Part shown: positions 31,227 through 32,252 of the stretch, piece after piece
Numbering within the stretch: the first letter of the stretch is position 1
Layout: each line of letters opens with the position of its first letter
Assembly (NCBI GenBank): GCA_025060635.1
Contig: JANXBN010000002.1
Span: forward strand, 1-64,000
DNA length: 64,000 nt
Direction of reading: 5' to 3'
Source: Candidatus Kryptonium sp.
Lineage (GTDB): Bacteria > Bacteroidota > Ignavibacteria > Kryptoniales > Kryptoniaceae
Notes under the pieces: model-generated
Databases searched by the model: none
What the model was told of the DNA's origin: nothing
Seen by the model: only the letters and a program-made list of their open reading frames with translations
Position numbers and translations under genes: made by a program

Positions 31227-31239
31227 ACGAGCGAAAGTC

Positions 31240-32229
31240 GTGAGAACAAAAAAAGAGACAAAAGCTGAAGAGATAATAAAAAAATTGCCTGAGATAATAG
31301 AGTCAGACAGTGCTTTTAGACAGAGACTATTTGCTATGTTGCTTGAGTATTTTCCATCAAGGCAGGAGTATAATTATATATTGAAAGGTATAAACGAAAT
31401 TTTGGAGCGACAGGAAGAGCATTCACGAGTGATAAAGGAATTAACCGAGAAAATTGATAAACATTCGCAGATACTTGAGGAATTGATTAGAGGACAGGAG
31501 CGACATTCGCAGATACTTGAAGAGCATGCGAAAGCAATAAGAGAGTTAAGTGAAAGACAGGAAAGACATTCGCAGATACTTGAGGAACATGCGAAAGCAA
31601 TAAGAGAGTTAAGCGAGAAAGTAGATAGACATTCGCAGATACTTGAGGAATTGATCAGAGGACAGGAGAGACATTCGCAGATACTTGAAGAGCATGCACG
31701 GAAGCTGGAAGAGCATTCAAAAGCGATTGAAATGTTGGTAAAAGAAGTTTATGAGTTAAAAATAACTGTTGGCGGGCTTGTTAAAGAGATGGGAGATATG
31801 AAAGTTGAATTTGCACGACTCTCCGATGCGGTTTATAAGCTTAAGGTTACAATAGGCAATATAGGTGCAAGATGGGGAATTATGACAGAAGATATGTTCA
31901 GAAAAGCTTATGAAGAGATTTTGAAATCTCTATTTGGGCTTGAATATAAAGTTGAAAAGCGAAAGATAAAGTATGATGATAAAGAATCGGAAATTGATAT
32001 CGTAATATCGGACGCAAAGGAAGTGATCGTTGAGGTTTCCGCTTCAATGAATAAGAAAAAAGCGGAAAGAATAGCTGAAAAAATTAAAGCATATAGAAAA
32101 GAGACCGGTAAGGAAGTTCCAGCGTATGTGATATCTGCAAGTGCGTCTGCTGAATCCGTCGTTTTGTTAAGAGACGAAAACATCAACATCATAACACCAG
32201 AAGCAGAAGAAGAGGAATTTGAAAAATAA
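31240..32229 (+). CDS. Coiled-coil protein with C-terminal PD-(D/E)XK nuclease-like domain (DUF3782-type)
   Basis: 329 residues from GTG 31240. After about 50 residues comes a long Glu/Lys/His-rich coiled coil built of RHSQILEE units spaced 14, 21, 21 and 14 residues (heptad multiples). It is followed by a hinge and a compact domain (about 215-315) with SEIDIVISDAKEVIVEVSAS, which fits the D-x(n)-E-x-S/K core of PD-(D/E)XK nucleases, and KAYRKETGKEVPAYVISASA. Such proteins are scattered in thermophiles and archaea, often annotated DUF3782. There is no signal peptide, so it is cytosolic although it sits among secreted-protein genes. The usual lysine of the motif is not obvious (EVSAS). Function and activity are unknown. 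Confidence 0.65.
   Translation: MRTKKETKAEEIIKKLPEIIESDSAFRQRLFAMLLEYFPSRQEYNYILKGINEILERQEEHSRVIKELTEKIDKHSQILEELIRGQERHSQILEEHAKAIRELSERQERHSQILEEHAKAIRELSEKVDRHSQILEELIRGQERHSQILEEHARKLEEHSKAIEMLVKEVYELKITVGGLVKEMGDMKVEFARLSDAVYKLKVTIGNIGARWGIMTEDMFRKAYEEILKSLFGLEYKVEKRKIKYDDKESEIDIVISDAKEVIVEVSASMNKKKAERIAEKIKAYRKETGKEVPAYVISASASAESVVLLRDENINIITPEAEEEEFEK
31462..31728 (+). repeat. Direct repeats encoding the RHSQILEE coiled-coil units
   Basis: CATTCGCAGATACTTGA occurs at 31462, 31504, 31567, 31630 and 31672 with spacings 42, 63, 63 and 42 nt, all multiples of 21. A decayed copy begins at 31714. The near-identity at DNA level points to recent unit duplication. Confidence 0.85.
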
Positions 32230-32252
32230 CAAATAAATTCAAAGAGGCAAAG

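Follow-up and report, generated by a model that had tools for sequence, protein, structure and literature searches.

A stalked PD-(D/E)XK-like protein of Candidatus Kryptonium and its occupied, remnant and empty gene slots within the genus

What is a repeat-rich coiled-coil protein with a nuclease-like end doing between two genes for secreted proteins, and how did its gene come to lie there? The question is raised by an open reading frame at 31240-32229 (+) of the window, the 64,000-nucleotide stretch of Candidatus Kryptonium sp. DNA analyzed here (contig JANXBN010000002.1; the genome is called G000 below). It starts with GTG, aligned with the ATG of its orthologue in a second genome of the genus (G004), and encodes 329 amino acids. 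Gaps of 13 nt after the upstream stop codon and of 23 nt before the next start codon separate it from its neighbors. Pfam places DUF3782 at residues 182-247 and PDDEXK_10 at residues 251-299, both over the curated cut-offs (52.2 versus 24.4 bits and 25.8 versus 21.2 bits). The gene, its slot and the parts of the protein are as follows.

31227..32252 (+): occupied slot flanked by two secreted-protein genes; in relatives with an empty slot these genes lie 19 nt (G001) or 21 nt (G003) apart, counted by eye.
31240..32229 (+): gene for the 329-amino-acid protein of the DUF3782 + PDDEXK_10 (PF12644 + PF07788) family, from the open reading frame and Pfam.
31240..31365 (+): helical segment at the N terminus (residues 1-42), corresponding to the family motif LLxEDEEFRxAVxGL (alignment A2; model helices 4-22 and 24-37).
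31366..31827 (+): stalk, residues 43-196, 22 heptads in a single register, about 23 nm if fully helical (period 3.5; model helix 41-210).
31462..31692 (+): five HSQILEE DNA repeats starting at 31462, 31504, 31567, 31630 and 31672, homogenized within species (TRF, exact-copy spacing, codon shuffles).
31864..32193 (+): PD-(D/E)XK-like domain, residues 209-318 (Pfam, models, fold matches to NucS/EndoMS).

A sequence-only reading of the same DNA had seen the overall anatomy, a repeat coiled coil joined to a nuclease-like domain, correctly. It had also described the protein as cytosolic and both neighbors as exported. No signal peptide is visible by eye in the window protein, as that description implies. 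For the neighbors, the claim is best borne out downstream, where a signal-like N-terminal segment (by eye) is accompanied by a C-terminal Por_Secre_tail sorting domain (Pfam); upstream, a signal-like segment seen by eye points the same way, in a protein with no Pfam match at 1e-4.

The stalk is regular over its whole length. Hydrophobic residues recur with a periodicity of 3.5 residues (power 307 versus 11.7, a value reached in 0 of 2,000 shuffles), and the AlphaFold2 model draws a single helix over residues 41-210 with a pLDDT mostly above 90 up to residue 180. The periodicity analysis revealed no nonad insertion, the period being 7 throughout residues 43-196. Two heptad registers score alike; one core phase is mostly Ile, Leu and Val with some Gln, and the core is mixed because the two possible partner phases hold many His and Ser residues. 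The dominance of His and Ser in two possible core phases (31366-31827) seems uncommon for a thermophile's coiled coil. Matches driven by the coil (SMC, ZorA, tape measure, DruC and MCP proteins) were mostly set aside as compositional.

Within the stalk, five HSQILEE units begin at residues 75, 89, 110, 131 and 145, that is, in steps of 14, 21, 21 and 14, which are the near-identical DNA repeats in 14- and 21-residue steps that had caught the eye at the outset. TRF reports a unit of 63 nt with 88% matches, six 35-nt copies are spaced 42, 63, 63, 42 and 21 nt apart, and the 123 exact 12-mer pairs observed exceed what the encoded protein would produce by chance (mean 19 and maximum 70 in 1,000 synonymous-codon shuffles). 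The DNA of the HSQILEE units is 94% alike within G000 and 94% alike within G004 but 78% alike between the two genomes. At the same time, the two proteins align without a gap up to their last two residues, with identical stalk order and length, despite strongly diverged silent sites in the nuclease part (dS 1.56). The repeats of this pair have thus been homogenized inside each species at constant length. The stalk of the orthologue in a third genome, G006, is interrupted by a run of N, so its length cannot be read there; runs of N likewise sit inside the repetitive stalks of the L005, L009 and L081 assemblies, where stalk length is lost as well.

Two roles had been suggested for this arm, measuring distance and oligomerizing the nuclease. 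Across the family, stalk length varies both between relatives and between paralogues of the same genome, which weakens the idea of a family-wide ruler, although the length is identical in G000 and G004. Division of the stalk lengths by 7 gave scattered remainders, from which we conclude nothing, as the N-terminal anchor is imprecise and missing in 5 of the 34 rows. Oligomerization would seem the better reading of the arm. In four archaeal loci (L075, L079, L080 and L081, from Methanophagales or Methanosarcinales), the stalk repeats, of the type EHSRILEEHSKRLEELSKRQE, closely resemble those of the window, whereas the nuclease parts are about 30% identical.

We then turn to the C-terminal end. 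Single-chain AlphaFold2 models of residues 1-329 (mean pLDDT 82.9, pTM 0.36, low confidence in segment 206-215) and of residues 196-329 (mean pLDDT 77.2, pTM 0.68) both show a helix, three strands, a helix, a strand, a helix and a strand, with an a-b-b-b-a-b core. When the Foldseek matches of the full model were re-aligned, leaving out those with Z below 8 (some of them unrelated folds), the best were NucS 2vld (Z 11.3, 2.5 A, 97 residues), EndoMS 5gke (10.8) and AF1548 1y88 (10.5). With the nuclease domain alone, 2vld was again the top match and the sole one below 0.001, at a modest E-value of 6.8e-4 and a TMq of 0.52; metallo-beta-lactamase rows in this search were set aside. The sequence-only reading had let its nuclease-like C-terminal domain depend on a restriction-endonuclease-like core in such a fold search, and this core is present. 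Sequence similarity is low: phmmer and hmmsearch against the sequences of solved structures gave weak matches only (4ic1 at 0.022 and NucS 2vld at 0.15), and identity to NucS/EndoMS, the mismatch endonuclease that is the best fold match, is 12-16% among the rows listed. Residues 211-320 are the only part that aligns to the NucS/EndoMS rows, the remainder of the protein being mostly helix in the model; NucS itself is not known to have a coil.

These features make the window protein a diverged member of a known but little-studied family of stalked PD-(D/E)XK proteins, DUF3782/PDDEXK_10 (PF12644/PF07788, formerly DUF1626, COG5493), whose members share its order of an N-terminal coil followed by a PD-(D/E)XK domain. 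Near the window the family is rare. Searched in 61 genomes (the window's own, 6 others of the genus and 54 of the order and class), the C-terminal part had matches in 4, all of the genus. PF12644 was found in 6 of 395 genomes drawn from the phylum, the window's included, 5 of them over the cut-off; genomes with many candidates had 13 scored, so copy counts are lower bounds, and one genome (G315) has at least 13 matches, some under the cut-off. A profile scan of genome contigs gave no relative with the single C-terminal sequence as the query and 41 loci with alignment A1. These are mostly archaeal, many from hot sites by title, with some bacteria, and they are not a census, because the query patterns favor near relatives; one of them, L092, encodes the same 303-amino-acid protein as the genus genome G005. 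The scatter among thermophiles and archaea that had been expected from the sequence is thus what the scan returned. Plasmids and phages (tblastn, E 0.01) and viral contigs yielded no match.

Of these 41 loci, 33 were aligned with the window protein (alignment A2, 34 rows). The other eight (L058, L067, L077, L078, L081, L083, L084 and L098) were left out as cut by contig ends, short or containing N, and L060 was begun at an inner Met. The following positions of the putative active site were read from this alignment.

31888..31890 (+): E217, placed in motif I; none of the 34 rows differs.
31996..31998 (+): D253, placed in motif II and likewise the same in all 34 rows.
32032..32040 (+): motif III, E265-V266-S267, with Ser at 267 here.
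32080..32082 (+): K281, on the helix that follows motif III.

Like E217 and D253, E265 and Y285 are invariant in all 34 rows, the window included. Position 267, in contrast, holds K in 19 rows, S in 7, M in 4, T in 3 and A in 1. The canonical PD-(D/E)XK site has a lysine here in motif III, and the window protein, with Ser267, is one of the 15 rows among the 34 that lack it; the earlier remark that the motif lysine is not evident was therefore accurate. Every one of the 15 rows that lack K267, the window included, has K281, compared with 14 of the 19 rows that have K267 (one-sided Fisher test, 0.042, with relatedness ignored), making K281 a candidate substitute for the motif III lysine. PMC1913061 reports that many DUF3782/PDDEXK_10 proteins have another residue in place of this lysine, with a basic helix after it, just as in the window protein, and proposes a migration of the lysine to the helix. 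The literature on the family, as far as accessible, contains no activity report for any member.

We consider the chances about even that the window protein is a cytosolic, self-associating stalked nuclease of the NucS/Hjc-like PD-(D/E)XK kind, encoded by a dispensable accessory gene in an operon gap. In such a protein, parallel coiled-coil stalks would group two or three nuclease heads at one end, while the N-terminal helical segments, presumably the docking part, would lie about 23 nm away at the opposite end. The heads would cut DNA with a metal held by E217, D253 and E265, a lysine from the following helix (K281) replacing the lost motif III lysine, and the gene might serve defense or DNA surveillance as a stand-alone accessory. 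Trimers have a precedent: according to PMC4786415, a coiled-coil fragment of the DUF3782 protein Tcar0761 of Thermosinus, held between GCN4 adaptors, was solved as a trimer. Points against our reading are the missing motif III lysine, the lack of an activity report in the literature consulted, the modest Foldseek E-value and TMq, the neglect of relatedness in the link between K281 and K267 loss, the two equally scoring heptad registers with many His and Ser residues at possible core positions, an N-terminal segment of 45 residues that evolves faster, and neighborhoods in which neither a defense island nor a partner gene was conspicuous (see below).

A more specific role is suggested by defense-gene profiles. 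PADLOC's C3a181 profile (PDLC01085) matches 32 of 34 A2 rows at 1e-5, and PADLOC accordingly files most of the family under a C3a prefix that we take to mean type III accessory. The label of this profile, "Diadenylate cyclase," fits neither the Pfam domains nor the fold and looks wrong. An antiviral effector, perhaps tied to type III CRISPR signaling, would also be consistent with the weaker fold matches to Card1, Can2 and Cdn1 (Z 8.3 each) and with the type I-B/III-A fusion that Kryptonia genomes carry, as stated in PMC4737851. However, the window protein is not among the 32 rows and does not match C3a181 even at E 0.01, Pfam reveals no sensing domain in it, and the likeness to cA4-activated nucleases is one of shared fold only.

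The surroundings of the family do not help this view either. We compiled 129 neighboring proteins of at least 90 residues, up to two on each side of the 41 loci, with a simple longest-ORF caller that miscalled some genes; the gene after L059 is a second family copy. At 1e-5 they match 157 Pfam families, the commonest among the best 25 of which is PIN, with 4 of the 129 proteins. At 1e-8 they match 38 PADLOC families, which are scattered, with one or two members each among 25 of the 38; the matches include a single Csx1 and a single Cas12f protein. No recurring partner gene or defense island stood out at the 41 loci in either set; the lack of a partner suits a stand-alone gene. Repeat number and neighbors of homologues had been named as checks beforehand, and of the two, stalk length proved variable and the neighborhoods gave no recurring partner. 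Archaeal operons of HEPN, MNT and DUF1626 REase genes are mentioned in PMC3710099. Altogether, we regard the antiviral effector as unlikely.

The reading of a stalked nuclease encoded by an accessory gene leads back to the locus and its counterparts in the genus, where occupied, remnant and empty slots form a series that is the new part of this study. Such slots are not reported in the accessible literature on DUF3782/PDDEXK_10 (DUF1626, COG5493), subscription papers mostly falling outside it. Site 1 is that of the window gene, and both of its flanking genes could be located in 5 of the 7 genomes of the genus. They enclose an orthologue in G000, G004 and G006, and the site is empty in G001 and G003, so the distribution at this locus is not fully native-like, with the gene missing from two of these five genomes. 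Site 2 is the junction of rpmF and plsX (both named by eye) and is readable in 6 of 7 genomes: G005 has a full gene, G006 a 56-residue in-frame remnant without the nuclease, and G000, G001, G003 and G004 nothing recognizable by eye. Site 3, between a gene for a 422-amino-acid protein and an aldo-keto reductase gene (named by eye), is readable in all 7 genomes. It holds a full gene in G004 (L106) and, in G000 (L108, G000:C2, about 243051-243569, -), a 172-residue in-frame remnant in which the coil is retained and the nuclease almost entirely gone; the site is empty in G001, G002, G003, G005 and G006. Because the stop codons of the site 2 and site 3 copies and remnants fall at or across the next start, their reading frame may be held by translational coupling. 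At three rpmF/plsX junctions without the gene (L101, L103 and L104), a hairpin-like inverted repeat was seen by eye, which was not seen at L099 and L100, where the gene or a remnant is present.

At site 1, the nuclease part is under purifying selection, with dN/dS values of 0.07 (G000/G004) and 0.09 (G004/G006) in the range of the two flanking genes (0.025-0.10). The N-terminal 45 codons are faster (dN 0.17-0.24), with a dN/dS of 0.19 in the one computable pair, which has few sites. The dS of the nuclease part is 1.56 for G000/G004, compared with 1.08 and 0.98 for the flanks, and 2.37 for G004/G006, compared with 1.52 and 1.61; for G000/G006 it is saturated. With silent sites at least as diverged as in the flanks, the nuclease part shows no sign of recent transfer at site 1. 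The GC content of the gene is native to the genome, as is the codon usage of the nuclease part: 61% of 450 random 149-codon pieces from other genes are equally far or farther. The codon distance of the whole gene looks odd (only 1 of 45 other ORFs is as far) because the repeats inflate the figure, and we did not take it as foreign. The horizontal transfer proposed in the sequence-only reading, for which codon usage was to provide a check, thus finds no support as a recent event at this locus.

The order of events can be outlined from the relationships within the genus. G001 and G003, the two genomes with an empty site 1, are mutually nearest in the four genes compared (dS 0.92, 0.85, 0.74 and 0.62), G005 and G006 are mutually nearest in plsX (dS 0.35), and G006 is in general the most distant among the remaining genomes, many values being saturated. 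Most simply, the common ancestor already had site 1 filled, and a single loss preceded the split of G001 and G003, a later gain being possible on a tree that has no outgroup root. Most likely, then, the gain of the window gene dates to the origin of the genus or earlier, with occasional loss since; purifying selection would keep it in the three species in which we see it, and it is absent from two.

The three lineages of the genus do not fall together in the tree, for which L067, L077 and L084 were restored in alignment A4 and L067 was removed again. The site 1 clade sits on a branch of 2.24, beside crenarchaeal rows at only 87/88, and we claim no donor for it. The site 3 protein groups with Poribacteria (96/87) and the site 2 protein, on a long branch, with Chloroflexi (83/72). 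Although the tree makes independent arrival of the three lineages likely, a single clade is not rejected (p-AU 0.109 for sites 1 and 3, and 0.069 with site 2 added).

The presence of family genes at several junctions invites comparison with free-standing homing endonuclease genes, a class of stand-alone nuclease ORFs that occupy the junctions between genes and have empty alleles in related genomes. Here, G001 and G003 carry such an empty allele at the insertion site. If the family moved in this way, the nuclease would cut empty intergenic alleles, recombination would copy the ORF with its start region, and old copies would lose the nuclease part. The three junctions occupied in some species and empty in others, the in-frame nuclease-less remnants in G006 (site 2) and G000 (site 3) and the lack of a recurring partner among the 129 neighbors fit this scenario. 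So does a Chloroflexi genome (L114-L121) with eight matches on eight contigs, one with an internal stop. The ends can be read in L114, L116 and L118, where DNA homology sets in 14-20 nt ahead of the start codon and goes no further than 3-10 nt past the stop. A moving unit would leave ORF-sized homology of this kind, but the same picture would come from old duplicates whose flanks have decayed or from the survival of harmless insertions only, and the other Chloroflexi copies are partly cut by contig ends, so that the ORF-sized unit is read in three copies. L116 also contains the start of a second tandem copy. Moreover, site 1 carries a vertical signal, with silent divergence not below the flanks and purifying selection that make the gene look inherited and useful. 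Homing endonuclease genes cleave a target site and spread; the likeness here is one of gene arrangement, and a single origin of the lineages is not rejected. We therefore think homing-like mobility doubtful at best. The same low expectation applies to its wider form, in which the family would consist of homing-like nuclease genes of thermophiles whose ORF and start region colonize operon gaps under translational coupling and die by in-frame loss of the nuclease, the stalk assembling the heads.

Loss of catalysis, leaving a rod-mounted scaffold that binds DNA or a partner, would suit Ser267, the coil-only remnant of G000 at site 3 and the nuclease-less coil relatives described in PMC4786415, but it is improbable given three invariant acidic residues, K281 in 15 of 15 lysine-less rows and the low dN/dS.

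Two papers named the family as a nuclease (PMC1913061, 2007) and solved its coil type (PMC4786415, 2016); among the papers listed for the family, none was on its function. In the latter, crenarchaeal DUF3782 endonucleases and Thermosinus Tcar0761 (5APZ) feature a stalk before the nuclease, or the coil alone. The crenarchaeal coils contain nonads, or beta-layers, whereas the window stalk has period 7 throughout, in agreement with the statement in the same source that bacterial members lack the crenarchaeal nonads. Among the members sampled, the window protein is thus set apart by its long branch, Ser267 and an all-heptad stalk without nonads. To the anatomy recognized earlier, our analysis adds the fold, the lysine pattern, the homogenization at fixed length within species and the occupied, remnant and empty slots. 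With three junctions, of which one is either full or empty and the other two are full, empty or reduced to a remnant, the genus offers a ready comparison. It makes testable whether these genes are mobile or accessory operon passengers and whether the catalytic lysine moves to the helix, and the coil repeats display homogenization at fixed length in one species pair.

Another type of coiled-coil protein, whose end, GECKSRPSKREIEKL, looks like PD-(D/E)XK, was noticed in the window's own genome (L002, 856-1893) and at L008 and L009. These three proteins have no PF07788 match, and by eye the genes of L002 and L009 directly adjoin a mutS-like gene.
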